From: Sinohyriopsis cumingii
Lineage: Eukaryota > Mollusca > Bivalvia > Unionida > Unionidae
Assembly (NCBI GenBank): GCA_028554795.2
Contig: CM068842.1
Coordinates: 54,077,608-54,141,607 of the forward strand
Reading direction: 5' to 3'
Length of the DNA: 64,000 nt
The position numbers were made by a program, and so were the translations under genes. Numbering within the stretch: the stretch's first letter is position 1; the number at the start of each line of letters is the position of its first letter. Positions 5,592-62,752 of this stretch are shown in pieces. The notes beneath the pieces were generated by a model that was given only the letters and a program-made list of their open reading frames with translations, ran no database searches and was not told the origin of the DNA.

Positions 5592-6488
5592 TTAAGATCT
5601 GTTTAAAACGAAGCGGTTACTTGTATAATCATGCACGACTTTATGAGGTGCCGCGGAGGACTTTGATATAGCGTCGAGTACATTAATTACTTCACTGCCG
5701 TATATTGGCGGATCCGTCATTGTTTGTGTTGGTAGCGTTGAATACCAAACCACTGCGTGAAGTGGCGCGACAGACTTGACAAACTCACGAGGTGGAGCTA
5801 ACCCGTACGAATCGAAATAAACAATTCCACGTGGATCAATTGCGTATGATACCCAATGACTACCGGGTCCTGAATTATCATCGAGATTAATGATACCCGT
5901 TTCAGCGCTGTTTGGTCGGTCCGGCAATTGATCTCGCATAAAAACACCTCTGAAGTTTTTTATTTTTAGCTGTTTAGCAGCATCAAGTAAATTAAAATTT
6001 GATGCTGAAATAATTAATGAAGTGATCCTGGAAGCCTCAGACCTCTTCCCCAACGAGATCCCGGCAATCTTAGGCCTCTCCCCTTTTTTATACCCTTTTC
6101 CTGTTGCTTTCTTTACAGCCATTCCAGCAGCGGTTCCAACAGAACCTAATGCGGCGGCTGCTTTTGCTACGGCAGGTGCGGCTGCGGCAATTAACGCTGG
6201 AATAGACGCGAGAAGTGGAAAAATACCACCTGTTTTAATTGAGTCTTTAACCGCACCCGCAGAGAGATTAAGTTTGACGCCTGTCTTTGATTGTTTAGCG
6301 CCGTTGAAATGTTTAAGTTGACGTTCTGATAATGACAATTTATTTTGACCACCCGTGATCTGATCTCGATTTAGTAATATTTTCATTCCGCAGTTTTTTG
6401 CTGAATTTGATTGAAGGTTTTTAATCTGACCAGGAGTCAGACTGACACTAACGTGATGATATGGCATTTTATGATAAATACTTGCCAC
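5592..6488 (-). CDS. pX-like/adenain-like protease fusion, catalytic Cys lost
   Basis: One 298-residue frame. Residues about 10-140 resemble the pX/pVI-type minor virion proteins of these elements: basic Leu/Ser repeats, then 'TGGIFPLLASIP', a Gly-Gly processing-like site leading into an Ala-rich amphipathic helix. Residues about 165-298 are an adenovirus-protease-like (Ulp1/C5 fold) domain, with 'KIKNFRGVFMRDQLP', the His motif 'GSHWVSY' and 'YFDSYGL'. The segment expected to hold the catalytic Cys-Gly reads Ile-Tyr-Gly-Ser; a Cys to Tyr change is one base (TGC to TAC). The frame is open but the protease should be inactive. It lies 14 nt from the MCP gene and 6 nt from the fibre gene. The fusion of the two domains is seen directly. 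Confidence 0.7.
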   Translation of the reverse strand: MASIYHKMPYHHVSVSLTPGQIKNLQSNSAKNCGMKILLNRDQITGGQNKLSLSERQLKHFNGAKQSKTGVKLNLSAGAVKDSIKTGGIFPLLASIPALIAAAAPAVAKAAAALGSVGTAAGMAVKKATGKGYKKGERPKIAGISLGKRSEASRITSLIISASNFNLLDAAKQLKIKNFRGVFMRDQLPDRPNSAETGIINLDDNSGPGSHWVSYAIDPRGIVYFDSYGLAPPREFVKSVAPLHAVVWYSTLPTQTMTDPPIYGSEVINVLDAISKSSAAPHKVVHDYTSNRFVLNRS

Positions 6489-9742: not shown

Positions 9743-10336
9743 AATTTTATTTCAGTAACATGACTTTTGTAAAAATTTGTTGTCCAGTGTAATTAACGGC
9801 TCCACATCTGCGTCATCAGCAGCGGCAGAGACTTTTTTTGGCCGTCTTGTAACATATGAAATATGATCAGCGTGGTTAGTAGCATCCTTAGCAAACATCA
9901 TTGTTGGACCGGCTGATCTTGTGTAATCATCAGAATATCTCGCTAGACCAATTATTGTTGTAGCAAACATCAACATCCATCTGAATTGATTCAATATTTA
10001 TTCCATCAATCATGTATGTGGCGCTATCAAACAGCACCATAATTCCGTTGTTGACAAAACCAACTCGGTCATTGACGTCGTAGTTAGTACCATCCGCTTT
10101 TACAAGTTCACCTTCTACCTCAATAAACGCCTCAGTGGGCAAGAAATATCTGCTTGTATCACGAACTTGTAATTCGATTCGACCATGCTGATCTGCTTGT
10201 TTTGCGTCATAGGAATACAATTGATAATCACGTACTGATTCATCTTTGAGAACCGGTGCATCCACGTCAAATGCTGGGTCGGATACCCGCTTGAACATTT
10301 TATTATAATTACCCATTTTTCCAAATGGTGATCTAA

Positions 10337-10744
10337 ATTATCGTCGTCTGACACGAAGACCACTTCCTGCTATTAAATTTGCAGTTATATTTCTTTCTGC
10401 TTCTTCAGATAATTCCGCTAGTTTTTGATTTGCGGCTTGATTTATTATTTTACTGACATTTGCGGCATAACTTCAGTGCTGGCCATATTGATTGGTTGCT
10501 GCTGTTTTCTTCGTACTAATCTAGACAGTCTATCCTTGACTGTCGAGAACGCTTTACTGGCAAGATTACCAATTGCGCCAGGAATTTTATCACGAACAGC
10601 CTCAATAGCCTTCATCCCTAATTGTTTTGCAATCGGTATTGCTTTTGGAGCCATCCTTCTAAATAGACCCTGAACAACATCACCAAGTCCATCTCCGTAA
10701 ATTGTTTTGTAATTTGGCAGCCGTGAGTTTACTACCCTAACCAT
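10337..10744 (-). pseudogene. Small basic core/minor-capsid-like protein, frameshifted
   Basis: The gene starts at 10744: 'LPNYKTIYGDGLGDVVQGLFRR' is the family hallmark, followed by a Lys/Ala/Ile helix (cut here into its two halves by eye) and 'LRRLVRRK'-type basic residues. The first frame ends at 10445. A neighbouring frame carries on 'QAANQKLAELSEEAERNIT' and closes with 'GSGLRVRRR' at 10337, which I take as the true end after a frameshift at about 10450-10490. The protein is about 135 residues, basic and helical; related elements carry such a protein immediately upstream of MCP. A role in genome packaging or membrane lysis is inference. Confidence 0.55.
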
Positions 10745-10802
10745 GATCGGTCAACGTTGAGCAGTGTGTATAATCATTTTTATATACTGATTAATTAATT
10801 TT

Positions 10803-11771
10803 TTAGTCGCTGTGATAATCATCAGCAATTTCATCAATAACAGAACGATAAATGCTGCGATCCATAATACCGCCTTGAAATAATCTTCGACAAATATCAG
10901 ATATTTCATTAACAATTTCTGAAGAATTTTTTCCAGCTCGTTTTCCTCCAGTCAGTATTTCTAGTCGTTTGTGGAGATTGTGGTCGAGGAGGTTGTTTTA
11001 CTAATCGAGGAATTTTTTACTTTTGTGATGAAGGAGATTGTTGTGGTGAGAAAAAGTGCACTTGTTGTTGTTCTATCTGTTACAAAGGTAGAAGAAACTG
11101 ATAGGAAGGCTCTTGCTGGGGGGATTACGGTGGAGAAGATTGTTGTTGTTTATTAAACTCTCTATCAAATATTTCTATTTTTTTAACAAGTGCATCGAAT
11201 TCATCACGTCTGACTTGTTTTTTTTGTTGTAATATACACGATATATCCATTTAATAAAATTGTCATTATTTACGGTTTCATAACCGGGTTTTAACATTTT
11301 AGATTTATCATACACACCAATTAGTATTTTTGCAGGTAAATCATGTTCGATAGTATTTTTAATATCCTCAATAACCTCTTTCTTAAATTTTTTAATCAGT
11401 TCAACATTTTCTTTTATTGGTTTAGATGCAAGTATTTCTTCGCCGAAGGGTGGATGTTGAGCTGCAGCCATGTCAGTTGGAAGATCTCGTAAAATCTTTT
11501 TTGTTTTTTTAGTTCTCGCTGCTATTTTTTCAGTTTGCTCAGCGGTTTGTTTTACTGATGGAAGTAGACCTTCAGTAGCCTCTGCAACTCTTTCAGTAAT
11601 TTTTGTAACCGGTTTAAATAACTGTTCTGTGCCTTCTGTAAATTCAACTTGGGCTTCTTGACGTTCTTGCAATTTTTGTCTAACAGAATCACGAACAGGA
11701 AGAAATGTTTTGATTGCTTTTAGTCTCTCGCGAGCTAATCTAGCAGTGTGAGATTCCTTAGCTGGTGGCAT
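10803..11771 (-). pseudogene. Coiled-coil virion-cluster protein, broken
   Basis: The first frame (11771-11175, 198 aa) begins 'MPPAKESHTARLARERLKA' and is almost all heptad-rich helix (about residues 15-140) with a structured tail 'ILIGVYDKSKMLKPGYE'. The frame is lost near 11180 and a Gln/Ser/Pro-rich stretch follows (11160-10990) in disrupted frames. A third stretch (about 10990-10803) is open again: 'GGKRAGKNSSEIVNEISDIC' and 'MDRSIYRSVIDEIADD', ending at a TAA. Both halves resemble parts of one protein found at the start of the capsid cluster in related elements. It is the most upstream gene of the cluster, beside the 11797-11967 inverted repeat. Its role is unknown. Confidence 0.45.
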
Positions 11772-11796
11772 TATTAATATGATAATTTTTAATTAA

Positions 11797-11967
11797 TAGC
11801 AGCAGAGGGGGCGGGACCTCAATGAGACGTCCGGTGGGTAAACACAAATTTCGATAAAAACTCTCGGTCAGGTTAGCAGTGACCTTATTTTTTTCAATTC
11901 GGAAGAAGCTTATATTTTAAGCAAATGACGTTTCAGACAAGTGGTCTGTTCGCCCCCTCTGCTGCTA
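11797..11967. repeat. 171-bp unit with perfect 17-bp terminal inverted repeats
   Basis: tagcagcagagggggcg at 11797-11813 is the exact reverse complement of cgccccctctgctgcta at 11951-11967. The GC-rich ends stand out from AT-rich surroundings. It may be a small MITE or the outer end of the endogenous virus, since viral genes stop 26 bp to its left and none lie to its right. No clear flanking duplication beyond a few bases is visible. Confidence 0.65.
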
Positions 11968-51961: not shown

Positions 51962-51999
51962 TCTATTTTCTAGATATCTGGGTGGCCCCGAAAAGGGCC
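51962..51999 (-). terminator. Histone-type 3' stem-loop and downstream element, copy 1
   Basis: On the minus strand, GGCCCTTTTCGGGGCC (51999-51984) folds as a 6-bp stem (one G-T pair) with a TTTC loop, matching the metazoan histone mRNA stem-loop pattern. It is followed by ACCCA and, 9 nt on, by TCTAGAAAATAGA (51974-51962), a purine-rich box like a histone downstream element. It lies 24 nt after a TAA stop at 52024. Confidence 0.75.
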
Positions 52000-52023
52000 G
52001 TTAGAGTTGATAGCCAAAGTTAG

Positions 52024-52600
52024 TTAACGCACACACCACAATGATTTACTATTCTTCTCAAACTTCTTCGCATTGCCGGTCCATACATCAATACTCACTT
52101 TATCAACGCCTGCCTTTCCACATACTCTTTTCTTCCACATAGCCCTGTCGGTAATCTTGTTGATGGTCTATGATAACTTCACATAGAATATATCGTCTGG
52201 GTTAAACTATGGAGGGGGGTTACCGCCATAATTCTACAGGAACGGCTGTATGTTTAATGGAGGGCTGAAGCTTTCCCTTCTACGTCTTTCATATTCAGTT
52301 ATACCGCATATGTCTCCCAGGACCATGAGTTTCCACTGGTGGTATTTTTTAATTGGATTGGACTGTACTCCATGGAATTTCTGAAGTTCGTTTATCAGCA
52401 TCGCCAAGATTGGTATTGGGCAGCCATAAAAAAATCGTCGCCCCGGGTGCTGATGTCTATAATGGCTTCAGTGGCATCATCATATTTTTTAACGTTTATC
52501 TTTCCTAGTGCTCCATCATAATAGATCTTTTGATGGGCCTCAAGTATAGTCCGGAGTGCGTCTGTGGAAAAAAAAAAGACCGCGTTCCTATTTTGATGTA
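52024..52600 (-). pseudogene. Unrecognised viral-cluster gene, broken; ends in stem-loop
   Basis: The minus strand reads open from about 52560 ('LEAHQKIYYDGALGKINVKK'), has two adjacent stops near 52390 and further stops, then an open 3' part that includes 'MWKKRVCGKAGVDKVSIDVW' and ends at TAA 52024. No family is recognised. Being the last gene before the left side of the second Polinton, with compact spacing, it is probably viral. It matters mainly for the histone-like stem-loop 24 nt past its stop. Confidence 0.4.
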
Positions 52601-52671
52601 GGTATGAAAGGCCCCATACATCAAGTTAGTCAGCCACATAGCTATTTATGTCTGTTTGAAATGTGGCTTGG

Positions 52672-53758
52672 TCAGTCTTGGTATGGCCACTTCTTGTTTT
52701 TTGTTTCTTTAGTGTCTTTTTTCGCAGCTCTTAGCAGTCTTTCTCTACTACTTTCTGGTGGTGTACACGTTTTTAGTCTGGTGCCAGTGGTTGCTGACTT
52801 GGTTGTAGTTGATGTTGATGTTGCTTCAGTTGTAAGTGTAATGGGCTGTTGTTTCTTGATACGCTCACTAGTTTTGGTTGTTGTTGTTGTTGTTGATGTG
52901 AGTTTCCCAGGATCGGGAGCAATTTTTCCGCTAGATGGTTTAGGGGGTGCCTCAGTAGGAGCTGTCAGTGAGTCTGCTACTCGAGTTGTTGAAGTTGTTA
53001 TTCCAGTTTTAGGTTTAGCAACAGCAGTTGTTGAAGTTGTTGTTGTTGATGTTGTTGTTAAACCCGTGTCCATTAGCTGGCTAAGATTGGTAACGTGTGG
53101 CGGTACTGGGATAGTAAAAGGAATTGTTTCCTTTCTTTTCTCCTCCCTTGGGGTGCCCTCAAATACCATTGACTCCTTTCCATTAGTTGAATGACTTTAT
53201 TTCACCTCCATGTCCCTTTCTTGAACCTCTTTTCCATTTCTGGTGGAGATTTCAACTGTTCTTGTTGCCACTTGAATATTTGGAGGTGATTTGACAGATG
53301 TTTACATCATTCCGTGGGGGGAGTCGTTAAATTGCTGACACTGGGAGTCACTTGCAGCTGGGTGTATACATTCTGTTGTTGTGAGTCGTACTCCCTCTGC
53401 GGTGCCTCAATTTCTCTTCTTGGTGTCTGTCTTCTTGGGGGCGCATTTCTCCAATTTCTTCTATTGGCACTTCTCCAATTGCATTTACTATCTTCTTTGC
53501 ATATCAGCAAAAGTATAGCTCTCTTTGCTTGAGCACGAAGGCTCCATCCTGTTGCAACTTGGAGGCTTAACCCCCTTATCGCGTTCAAGGCTTGTATAGG
53601 GAAAATGGCTCCCATCACTGACTCTCTTAATAAATCTGGTGCTTCTTGCTGTTTCGTTAGACGATAACGTGGGAGTCAAATTGACGAGCGCTCCCTTTAT
53701 ATTTGTCAAACATGGACGTGAAGGAAAACATATTGTCACCAAATCTTACATTGCCCAT
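52672..53758 (-). pseudogene. Thr/Ser/Pro-rich viral-cluster protein, frameshifted
   Basis: A likely start at 53758 ('MGNVRFGDNMFSF') passes through several frames. The middle has 'LSLQVATGWSLRAQAKRAIL' and a basic Arg/Pro-rich stretch (53307-53618). The 3' part (53169-52672) is a low-complexity Thr/Ser/Ala segment with repeated Thr-Thr-Ser-Thr runs, ending in a Lys-rich tail. The Thr-rich tract is encoded by (GTTGTT)-type repeats in the plus strand, prone to slippage. A minor virion or surface role is possible but not shown. Confidence 0.4.
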
Positions 53759-53947
53759 ATCATTACTCAAAGAAACATGGAACGCGCGGACTTAAAATAA
53801 ACACTCACTCACTTTTTTACTTACAAACCCTAACTACTATCAAAACTCACTGACGACGTGCTTATACACACACTTCTAAAAAAGTCTAACAAACAAAGTG
53901 CTTCTATTTTTTAACTTGCTAACATATCATTGGCAATTGAATTTGTA

Positions 53948-53986
53948 TCTCTTTTCTAGAGTACTGAGATAGCCCTGAAAAGGGCT
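53948..53986 (-). terminator. Histone-type 3' stem-loop and downstream element, copy 2
   Basis: On the minus strand AGCCCTTTTCAGGGCT (53986-53971) is a perfect 6-bp stem with a TTTC loop. Ten nt later comes TCTAGAAAAGAGA (53960-53948), which differs by one base from the box of copy 1 and contains AAAGAG, the usual U7-pairing core. It lies 32 nt after the stop at 54019. Confidence 0.8.
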
Positions 53987-54018: not shown

Positions 54019-54474
54019 TTATTGTCTAAATTTGCGTCCCCGTCTGACGACAGGCTTTCTCACTGGATAGGGTCTGCTTCTTCGGAAAGAGAAGGAGAAC
54101 TCTTTGGTGTTTACATGGCAGTCGACAAAATCTCTGTCTGGTTCCTGCTGCTGCTGTTGCTGCCGTTCTCTCTGATCTCTCTGCTTCTGAAGTATGTACT
54201 TCTCAGTCCATTCTTCCTTTTCTTTCTTGGTTTCCTCTCTGAAGAGCTGTTCTATCAGGTCTTCAGTCACTTTTAACATTCTGACATTCTCCATTTCTTC
54301 AGGCTTAGGTATCAGGCTTTGCCTGACACGATGTAAATTCTTGTAAGCTTCGATCAGCTTGGCTAACCTTGAGCACATCTTCATAGGAGGATGAGTCAAC
54401 AATGGATGGTCACAATGGAGACGGCCCCACTTTACATGGTTCAAGCTCAGACGCGATATAAAACATCTCTGCAC
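54019..54474 (-). CDS. Basic, coiled-coil protein of second Polinton
   Basis: An uninterrupted frame of 151 codons. The middle is helical and charged ('MLKVTEDLIEQLFREETKK', then a Glu/Lys stretch), followed by six consecutive Gln, and the tail is strongly basic ('RRSRPYPVRKPVVRRGRKF'). This fits a nucleic-acid-binding or core protein, but no family is recognised and it is not a histone. It is one of the few open frames in this element. Its stop is followed 32 nt later by the histone-type stem-loop. An earlier in-frame start than 54474 is not excluded. Confidence 0.5.
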   Translation of the reverse strand: MQRCFISRLSLNHVKWGRLHCDHPLLTHPPMKMCSRLAKLIEAYKNLHRVRQSLIPKPEEMENVRMLKVTEDLIEQLFREETKKEKEEWTEKYILQKQRDQRERQQQQQQEPDRDFVDCHVNTKEFSFSFRRSRPYPVRKPVVRRGRKFRQ

Positions 54475-55783: not shown

Positions 55784-56650
55784 CTAATAGTCTAGAATGA
55801 CTTCTGTCAAACTGTTGATTTCTATGGTATTGTCGAATTAGGCATACAGGATGACGTTCACCGTCTCAGATAAAGGTCTAGCAAACTGAAGTTCCACTCG
55901 AATCTGACCTGATTTTATAGGGTGGACATGTCCCTCGTCGCTCCCTTGGTCAGTAGTGAAATCAAAAGCCCACAAAGCGTATCCTCCTGCATAATCCTCG
56001 TACGTAATGCCATGACTGGTGTTGGTCCCTAACTGTCCGGTGGCTTCGTACAGGGACAAGTACGACTTCAAGTAATTCATCTTGACACTAAAGCCAGGTT
56101 CGAAGGGTCTGGTACACAAGGTCTTGCCATCGCAGCTGAATTCGATCATGGACACGTCTTAGTGCTGAAACTCGAAAGGACTTTGATTGTGGACTCCGTT
56201 GAAGGCTGCGTTGCTCACGATACCAACGATTAATCGCTTGGGTAACTGTCCTTGCAACAGATGTTCTTCGAGCTTGGACCGGAGTCCAGTATCAGTGGTG
56301 GAGGTTTTCACTTCCAAACGTCATATCAGATACTTGGCGGTCGTTCTGCTCAAAGTGACTTAATGTTGTTTCCCACTTTATGTAACACTTCCACACGTCG
56401 TACGTAGAGTCTGTCTTCCTCGATGTAGGTTTTATAATCGGCAGCATCAGCCATCAAATGGAAAGTAGTACTGCTGAGATTCGGTCTCAGGCGAACATCC
56501 ACGCCGTTCAGCAAATACTTCTCTTGTAACCACATGTCCAAATGCTAGCGGTCCATCAGTTCTAAACTTTCGCTTCCAGCAATTTTCTTTTGACGTGCGT
56601 CAAATCCCTTATTGGTGCAATCTTTAGCTGCCACCTCATCGAACTTGCGT
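55784..56650 (-). pseudogene. Major capsid protein of second Polinton, truncated
   Basis: Recognisable blocks in order are 'MWLQEKYLLNGVDVRLRP' (56530), 'DYKTYIEEDRLYVRRVEV', a 'PKRLIVGIVSNAAFNG' block read in the next frame (about 56250), 'GITYEDYAGGYALWAFDFT' and 'RPLSETVNVILYA', then a stop and the end motif Phe-Asp-Asn-Thr-Ile-Glu-Ile before TAG at 55784. These match the double-jelly-roll capsid family of Polintons (the F54H12.2-like family of nematode annotation). The amino end is missing because a deletion joins it to the ATPase fragment, and at least four disruptions occur. It is a different capsid lineage from the 6.5-10.3 kb gene. Confidence 0.8.
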
Positions 56651-59341: not shown

Positions 59342-62300
59342 TTACAGCAAAGTTCCCATTATCCTTTGATGCACTTGAGAATCACCAAACTTGAATAATA
59401 TCTGATGAAAAGGATTGAACTTTATCGCTTGGTCTTGGCAGTTACAATGAACTATCGGTCTTGGACGTTGTCCCTTTTTATATGCTGACCAATATCGACG
59501 TGACCGTACGTAAAGCGAAGTGGTTGGGAAGCCACGTTCGCTTCTGGTAGATAATTTCATACAATTTTTCCAAGGGTCAACTGACGATTTGGTGAGTGGG
59601 TAAACGTACAATCTTGTGCGGTTCGAAGGTGGTTACTTTAAAGTTTCCATCCTGACAAGTCTGCAAGGCTTCTGTCAATAGGCCAATGTTCACCACTCGA
59701 CTGTTGCGATAATTGAGAGTCAATCCTTTCACTTTAAACTCCGTATGCTCTTCTCCTTGTTTGTCCCGGTATTCGTAGCCGTAATTTTTAGGACCGCCAC
59801 TAGCAAAACTTAGAATTTTGTCGCCGGGGTTTTCTTCTTTCCAGGCTCCTAAACGGTCTCCTTCGATGTCAGGGTGACGTTGACTCAGGCTGTCAGTGTA
59901 GATGCAACTGTTCGTGTCAAAGTACAGGACACGATCTCCTAACAGTTATAAAGCTTCGTACAATTTTAAGCGAGCATGGGCTGTCACGTAAGCCGCAATG
60001 ATGACATTTCCAAATTCGACGGCCTATACAAAGTCCAGTTCTTCTTCGTAATTGACTAAGATCAAGTTCTCACGAAGGACGTCCACGTGTTTCATGTATT
60101 TGGTTTTGTCGTGAGTCATCTGGAAGTAGCGACAAGGTTCTGTCAAACACTCAGTCTTGGGGAAACACAGTTGCTGTGCCATTTTACCCCATAAGCAATT
60201 TAATATCACTTTGGCAAACGATCACCTGCCTTCGTTTTCCTCAATGTGGTCTAAAGAGATGCCTTCCTGCTCCCAGTATTTCTCTTTGAATTTCTTTTGG
60301 TTCTCGCAAGTGTGGCCCCAGGAAGGATAGCCGCTGGCTTCTTGTTTCAGTTTCAGAAAGACAGCGACGTAGACTGCGAAAATGCCTCTCTGAATCTCGT
60401 CGTCCTTGTGGTACTGTTCTGTTTTGGGAAAGTGGTAAATTTAGTACACTTCTAACAGCTGGTCTCCCATGTCCAGAGCTTTGAACAATTCTACGCTGAC
60501 CCACTTTCCCGTCAAGGCGCGTTCTTCCTGGATTTGCTGAAAAGGTTGGTCTTGGTTGCACGTTTTAGCACAAATACGGCACAAGGGAAACATCAGTTTT
60601 CCTTGGCAATGGTGAGGTAAAACTTGATGGCACAAGTCCGTGGGAGGCAAGACTTTACATTTAATCAATCCTTCGTATTGGCGAATGTTGTCCAGTTGAA
60701 TTTGTTCCGTCAACAATTGCAGGTGCCCTGCAGGAAAGCGACAATATTTGCACACGTAAAGATACAACAAACACACGTCCAAGTCTTTGATTTCTTCTCC
60801 TTTCCCCTCGTCAGCGTGGTACAACAAACAGGTGGCATTCGTCCGTCCTCCGTACAAACTTTCTCGCTGGTTTAGTGGGTGCATCAATTGTAACGTTCCA
60901 CGATGCGTTTAAACTCGGGATCCGTTTTCAAACGGTGATCGTATTCGTGTTCCCACATTTCCACCATTTGATATCATTGTTGTTCTAACTTCAAGCGCAG
61001 CTGGCAAGTGGCCTCGTACAAGTTTTCCATGGTCCGTTGTAAAAACTGATTTTTAGTGTCACGTTCAGGGTAGCAGATGGGACATCCGTGAAATAAGCAA
61101 CCGTTAAACTCGTACACGATCTTTGCGTTTTCTAAGTCCCAACCATCCACCGAATACGTACCTATGGTGTTCTCGCCTCCTTCGTTGCGGGCATGTTGGA
61201 CCCATATGTCTTCCTTGTCGCACATATAATGTATCCAGCGTAGGGCTTTGACCGAGTATTGACGTTTGACAAAGTTGTTCGTTTGAGAACAGATGACAGC
61301 CAGGGTGTTTTCAGGGATGAATCGTTCACGGTATACTAATCAACACGCTTTGGCGATGGTGGAGGCATTTTTCAAAGGATCGATCCCTCCGTGTGCTATG
61401 AATAATTCTCGAAATATTCCACAGCAACGCCGTAAAATGTCCACGGCAGAACGACAATACTTTAACATTTCTTCCTGAAAGTCGAAGGGGTCCGAAGCGT
61501 GAGCCTGGTACCAAGCGTATAAAACTTCTCGCTGTTCGGCACGCATGTTGTCTGGGTCGTAGTCGTGAGCCTCAGGCCAATGGGGTAGAATAGCATGATG
61601 ATTGTCCTCGGTATTTTTGTCATTCCAAGCGTTTTAGGCATCCGACTCAAAAGCATGGCCAAGTAGCTCATCGAATCTTTAAACTGTACTTGTCCCGCTT
61701 GCAAGGAAATGATTTTGGCTCCGTTGAAAGTTACTTTAGGACGTTCGGTGCTTTGTTCCGTATAGTATCTCAAAAGAAACTGTCCTTTTTATCCCAAGAA
61801 ATTGTGAGTCTTTACCGTGGCAATGACATTCTCCGTAACGTTCAATGTGCTCTTGGTTCCACGTCTAAGATCCATTGGGGGAAATCGGCAAGCGTGTTCG
61901 ATACACGAAAGATTTTTTTCCCTTCCTCCAGGAATCTTGCTGCAGTTAAAGCAATGACTAAAGATAGGTTCTTGGATGCACTTCTCGCATGCTCGATTAG
62001 ATTTGCAGAAATTAGGATTGTGAATGCCGGTCTCTTGAATGCATATTAAATCGAAAAAGATGAAATTTACTTTCTTCCGGTCATCTTACTTCTCCTCCTG
62101 TTTGGAATGGTTTTTCTGAATGTAGCATTCGTGTTCCAACTCCTCGATGTGGTGACAAATGTGACAACGTTTCTTTCCTCGACAAACATGTGCCTTGGAA
62201 TTATTGTTACGTATGCATTGTTCACAAGTAGGGCACAATCTCAGCAGTTGAAAAGCACTTTTGTGCTGTGAACCTTGCGTCTTCAGATGTTGTTGGTAAC

Positions 62301-62652
62301 AAGCAGGGCTGAAAAAAGTGCGCTGACAAGCAGGGCAATAGACTCGTTGAGTGGCCAAACATCCTGAGCATTTCGATCCACAATGCTTGTGTTGCTTTCA
62401 GTTGTTATAGCCATAGTCACATTTGTCACAATAATAACTGTATCCCAGGAATGCAGTGATACTGGTGATGGCATCGAAATGTTCATCGTGATGACAGATG
62501 TGAACGTATTTTCCGTCTTTAAAATCTTTGCCTCGAAACAACGAAGGTTCGCGTACTTCTTGAGGGTACACTTTCAATGTGTAGCGTGTAACCAAGACGT
62601 CTTGCAATTTTTGCATTTCAGGAATGCCACAGGGTGTGTCTTTGGATAGTCC
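59342..62652 (-). pseudogene. Protein-primed family B DNA polymerase of Polinton, degraded
   Basis: Pieces in polymerase order: an amino-terminal zinc-cluster region (62490-62086) with 'YCDKCDYGYNN', 'YCPACQRTFFSPACYQQH' and 'CHICHHIEELEHECYI'; 'YEFNGCLFHGCPICYP' near 61100, a hallmark of Polinton PolB; 'LIKCKVLPPTDL' and 'LPHHCQGKLMFPLCRICAK' at 60700-60560; and a motif-C segment Tyr-Phe-Asp-Thr-Asn-Ser near 59920. The motif A region is degenerate and the second motif-C aspartate is Asn. More than eight frame breaks occur, and the 5' end runs into the assembly gap at 62653. The enzyme would have replicated the element from a protein primer. Residues 59611-59342 are the weakest part. Confidence 0.85.
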
Positions 62653-62752
62653 NNNNNNNNNNNNNNNNNNNNNNNNNNNNNNNNNNNNNNNNNNNNNNNN
62701 NNNNNNNNNNNNNNNNNNNNNNNNNNNNNNNNNNNNNNNNNNNNNNNNNNNN
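62653..62752. other. Assembly gap, 100 N
   Basis: A run of exactly 100 N, probably a placeholder of unknown true length. Linkage between the two sides is by scaffolding only. Confidence 0.99.

Follow-up and report, generated by a model that had tools for sequence, protein, structure and literature searches.

Probable histone-type 3' ends on the genes of an abundant Polinton lineage in Sinohyriopsis cumingii

Introduction

Replication-dependent histone genes are regarded as almost the sole users of histone-type 3' ends. No description of such ends in mobile elements, Polintons included, was found in the titles and abstract openings of the open-licence papers listed. Polintons are known by their gene set and by a size of 15-20 kb (PMC4028283), and the element considered here is comparable.

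The stretch of DNA analysed, referred to below as the window, comprises 64,000 nucleotides of Sinohyriopsis cumingii (GenBank assembly GCA_028554795.2, contig CM068842.1, positions 54,077,608 to 54,141,607 of the forward strand). An earlier note on it, made from the letters alone, had reported that two genes of an endogenous Polinton end in histone-type hairpins. The evidence presented here gives good grounds for believing that several small non-histone genes of an abundant Polinton lineage terminate in the full host histone 3'-end signal, SLBP/U7 processing being the most likely mechanism. In its full form the signal consists of an A-rich 5' flank, a six-pair GGCCC/AGCCC stem, a loop that is mostly UUUC, a 3' flank of the ACCCA type and a purine box 13-14 nt on.

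Results

Two hairpins in the window

Both minus-strand hairpins of the earlier note, with their 6-bp stems and TTTC loops, were recovered. Hairpin 1 (51984-51999, minus strand; GGCCCT-TTTC-GGGGCC) has six pairs, one of them U-G, and matches the Rfam family Histone3 (RF00032) at 35.9 bits (E 9.4e-7), above the gathering score of 34. Hairpin 2 (53971-53986, minus strand; AGCCCT-TTTC-AGGGCT), also with six pairs, falls under that score, at 22.7 bits (E 0.029), and is letter-identical to the hairpin found 3' of gene D1 in another locus, L090. The purine boxes TCTAGAAAATAGA (51962-51974, minus strand), which resembles the downstream box of host histone genes, and TCTAGAAAAGAGA (53948-53960, minus strand) have coordinates counted by hand. 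As the note had it, they are alike at 12 of 13 positions and begin 9 and 10 nt past their stems, and the stop codons lie 24 nt (hairpin 1) and 32 nt (hairpin 2) upstream. Within the boxes, GAAAA begins 13 nt past the stem of hairpin 1 and GAAAAG 14 nt past that of hairpin 2. A looser hairpin pattern, allowing one mismatch, gave 2 matches in the window alone against 0.44 expected, which is weak by itself. Both hairpins are nonetheless genuine and more than chance, as the genome-wide results below make plain. Matches to miRNA families in the window were far under their cut-offs, fell in low-complexity sequence or inverted repeats, and were set aside.

Hairpin 2 follows the non-histone gene D1 (54019-54384, minus strand; 121 aa). 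At hairpin 1 the stop (52024-52026) closes an open frame of only 47 codons, the last piece of a decayed gene (52024-52170, minus strand). A second frame of that piece resembles, by eye, the end of gene E in other copies; the frame open in the window differs from the one open in L047, L055, L057, L062 and L072, the latter being a candidate coding frame for E.

Between the window and L090, D1 has 69% identity over 134 aa (tblastn, E 9e-41), and relatives of D1 with an open frame are present elsewhere in the genome. L090, a single copy of 9 kb, carries an RVE integrase (PF00665, 1e-13) with a chromodomain (PF00385, 1.2e-7), followed by an F54H12.2-like gene and then by D1, D2 and C, each with a hairpin (at 6331, 7217 and 8376). 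In the window, pieces of the F54H12.2-like gene of Polintons lie at 55811-56637 (minus strand; 70-78% to L090 4165-5487, E 7e-109), and a type B DNA polymerase, broken into pieces, at 60024-60908 (minus strand), where the two PF03175 matches, at 60441-60908 (E 2e-5) and at 60024-60221 (E 0.014), fall under the curated cut-off. A run of unknown bases (62650-62751) sits inside the polymerase-side part of the element. A tblastn-type comparison with the genes of L090 found no RVE integrase in the window copy. Since it has the F54H12.2-like gene, D1 and polymerase pieces, all running in the same direction, the window copy is a diverged member of the L090 group, one that shows two signals where other copies have about five. 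Another locus, L027, joins part of gene A to polymerase-like sequence matching the window. Polymerase, integrase and hairpins never occurred together in one copy among those examined; the integrase was seen in L090 only, and most other loci were placed in the group by gene similarity.

Recurrence of the signal in the genome

The exact core RGCCCTTTTCAGGGCY occurs 27,794 + 28,403 = 56,197 times in the 2.9-Gb genome, against about 5 expected by base counting and 0 for the reversed control. A genome search with Histone3, which scored only 75 of 589,472 first-look candidates, placed all 75 above the cut-off, across many contigs. When flanks and box were fixed while stem arms and loop were left free, 5,333 sites were found with the CCAAA flank, versus 2 in the control, and 14,011 with the AAAC flank, versus 35. 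Among 100 listed CCAAA-flank sites, 78 have GGCCCTTTTCAGGGCC exactly and 22 differ. The foot pair of the stem, in 100 listed core sites, is G-C in 62, A-U in 35, A-C in 3 and G-U in 0, a spread between G-C and A-U that may come from two gene lineages. In an alignment of ten sequences, host histones among them, all 54 cells pair; covariation is weak, with one pair changed on both sides and a score reached in 12 of 500 shuffles. What the window shows holds generally for an abundant Polinton group of this genome. The absence of the hairpins from relatives of the element, which the earlier note had named as grounds for giving up its reading, was looked for; relatives within this genome have the hairpins, and the exception is four Polinton fragments from other sources, described below.

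Among the first 100 sites on one contig (C1), the members of 19 divergent pairs are separated by 1,066-1,104 bp and 30 tandem neighbours by 788-2,123 bp, and 29 neighbour gaps span 11.7-22.9 kb, a spacing that fits an element of about 16-20 kb with about five hairpins. In such a layout an outward-facing hairpin at one end would have a second hairpin about 1.08 kb further in, and the other end would carry two or three in tandem. Five hairpins per element would put the total at about 11,000 element equivalents (56,197 / 5), many of the copies being partial; if true, this would be a very large expansion of Polintons for one animal genome.

The hairpins end up to five small genes, A (about 190 aa), D1, D2, C and E (short, basic). 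No Pfam match above cut-off was found for A, D1, D2 or C. The computed pI, from single examples, exceeds 9 for A, D1, C and E and is 6.25 for D2. Homologues in the protein database numbered 19 for A and 10 for D1, none with a named function, and 1,207 for the F54H12.2-like protein, a candidate capsid protein, whose named animal relatives, among 120 listed of the 1,207, are bivalves. With so few homologues, the two hairpin genes searched (A and D1) look like narrow accessory genes.

Position relative to genes

Of the first 30 hairpins by map order (loci L043-L072), 27 follow a same-strand open reading frame of at least 80 codons with the stop no more than 60 nt away, as do 301 of 3000 random points drawn within those loci. 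A wider set, the 58 usable of 88 distinct sites, has 35 in sense after such a frame and 2 in antisense, at distances of 7-56 nt (median 25); the lower share may reflect ends that are short or decayed. A box of the form RAAAAG begins 13 nt past the stem in 82 of the 88 sites and 14 nt past it in 2, and is missing in 4, while random 34-nt stretches contain it in 230 of 3050 cases. The end of gene C in L090 has the hairpin and no recognisable box.

Hairpins so arranged might instead act in the DNA, marking the ends of the element for replication, packaging or integration with no role in RNA. They do cluster near the ends, and the outer ones adjoin sequence common to both end types (L001 versus L011, for example, 85% over 323 bp). 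Against this, their strand and distance track the stops of as many as five genes, the inner hairpins lie 0.8-2 kb inside the outer ones, and a mark in the DNA accounts neither for the purine box nor for the likeness to the ends of host histone genes. I consider this reading improbable.

Polyadenylation signals were also counted. AATAAA or ATTAAA occurs at most 200 nt past the hairpin in 9 of the 30 sites, so polyadenylation may serve as an alternative or back-up. The suggestion that other genes of the element kept AATAAA signals stands only weakly: one AATAAA or ATTAAA lies 133 nt past the putative capsid-type gene in L090, and none was found within 250 nt in the window copy.

Conservation of the gene ends

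Alignments of gene ends gave identities of 0.95-1.00 for the hairpin, 0.89-0.96 for the box, 0.67-0.94 for the last 90 coding bases and 0.69-0.89 beyond. No other part is as well conserved as the hairpin in A, C and D1, while in D2 hairpin and box are roughly equal. Because the aligned loci were found by way of their hairpins, the sample leans towards intact hairpins. A count less exposed to this bias comes from gene ends in L001-L030 that were not used to find their locus: the GC-rich hairpin is perfect in 18 of 24 and present with 1-2 changes in the remaining 6, while random positions have a hairpin in 85 of 3660 cases. It replaces an earlier off-centre count of 30/37, discarded as partly circular, the neighbours in L043-L072 having been hairpin-listed and L090 hairpin-chosen.

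These figures bear on the idea that the end of a histone gene was once captured, spread among element ends by recombination, and now persists as a functionless relic. Such an origin would suit both the identity of the hairpin with that of host H2B and the decay of copies, visible in the 22 of 100 listed sites off the main stem. It fits poorly with a hairpin that, in a sample led by hairpins, is better conserved than the final 90 coding bases of all four genes compared, and with a window D1 that has drifted so far from its L090 counterpart, yet is followed by the same hairpin to the letter. A relic is about as improbable as a purely DNA-level signal.

Host histone genes and processing factors

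The host core histone matches that were scored, 150 of 662 candidates, belong for the most part to a tandem array with a unit of about 8.3 kb. H3, H4, H2B and H2A have terminal hairpins with a GGCCC stem and the loops TTTT, TTTT, TTTC and TTTA, respectively, and their GAAAAG box lies, by eye, 13, 13, 13 and 14 nt past the stem. The commonest Polinton hairpin is identical to that of host H2B, and TCTAGAAAAGAG is common to box 2 of the window and the host H3 box; the element thus carries the host's own signal dialect. That the sites are themselves ordinary histone genes or chance hairpins can practically be dismissed, even with hairpin 2 under the Rfam cut-off and the odds for the window alone weak: no more than 118 of the 56,197 sites agree with the end of host H2B over its 36 bases, the reversed control is empty, and the scored histone matches lie mostly in the tandem units. 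The possibility raised in the earlier note, that both hairpins are histone tails placed here by chance, falls with it.

A genome search for host U7 with RF00066 gave nothing above cut-off (best 29.3 bits, E 0.27). A loose U7 pattern had 189 matches versus 98 in the control, and the match recurring in the histone array lacks a 3' hairpin by eye; a tighter one had 13 versus 35, its best-looking match reading, by eye, as Polinton integrase. Both sets were rejected. An exon-by-exon search for the host SLBP domain found none above cut-off (best 21.4 bits, E 0.72), and control genomes were also blank.

Polintons outside this genome

The earlier note had proposed searching other molluscan Polintons with the Histone3 model. 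The signal recurs throughout the present genome, but four Polinton fragments from bacterial MAG records (L096-L099) contain no Histone3 match up to E 1, and with those fragments lacking the signal the trait looks lineage-bound. The Polinton genes in these records are probably animal host DNA binned with symbionts. L096 also holds a type B polymerase above the Pfam cut-off, and L097, a Bathymodiolus symbiont MAG record, has a twister-P1 ribozyme-like match (11734-11798, plus strand; 28.9 bits, under the cut-off of 67.2, E 0.034) shortly after an F54H12.2-like match (10001-11256). Among viral contigs, the hairpin pattern gave 4 matches with no downstream box, taken as chance, and searches there for relatives of four proteins (F54H12.2-like, integrase, A and D1) found none.

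Discussion

It is very likely that a set of mobile-element genes undergoes histone-type 3'-end formation. In favour of the claim from which this study began are the non-histone nature of the genes, the presence of the signal in relatives, and the host match in stem, box and spacing; the four outside fragments without the signal tell against its extension to Polintons at large. Under this reading, host SLBP would bind the hairpin in transcripts of these genes, the purine box would pair with host U7 snRNA, and the pre-mRNA would be cut a few nucleotides past the stem. The resulting mRNAs would lack poly(A), have the stem-loop as their 3' end, and be stable and translated mainly in S phase. I infer cleavage, the lack of poly(A), binding by SLBP and U7, and timing from the sequence, its pairing, position, strand, spacing and recurrence, and its match to the host; S-phase timing and the assignment of the genes to a 'late' class are predictions.

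A broader proposal, to be taken as tentative, is that the element possesses an S-phase regulon. Up to five non-histone genes, at both of its ends, may produce poly(A)-less mRNAs by way of the host histone machinery and so follow host DNA replication. Any transcribed copies among the more than 56,000 signals in the genome could also be competitors of histone pre-mRNAs for SLBP and U7.

If histone-type processing of these genes is real, it would be a new route to S-phase timing for a virus-like parasite, by way of a mobile element's own genes, and the genome would offer thousands of natural signal variants for studying recognition by SLBP and U7. RNA-seq of poly(A) RNA could also miss such transcripts, making Polintons look silent though they are not.

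Compared with Polintons (Mavericks) and animal adintoviruses, the element has in common an RVE integrase with chromodomain (in L090), the F54H12.2-like protein, a type B polymerase (broken, in the window) and end sequences shared between its two ends, which are candidates for terminal inverted repeats. It differs from them in its histone-type gene ends, of which there are none in the four outside fragments and none found published among the open-licence papers listed. Compared with the 3' ends of animal replication-dependent histone genes (RF00032; SLBP/U7 snRNP), the putative ones described here belong to non-histone genes of a mobile element and often have an A-U foot pair; they are like them in the six-pair stem, the four-base loop, the flanks and the spacing of the purine box.
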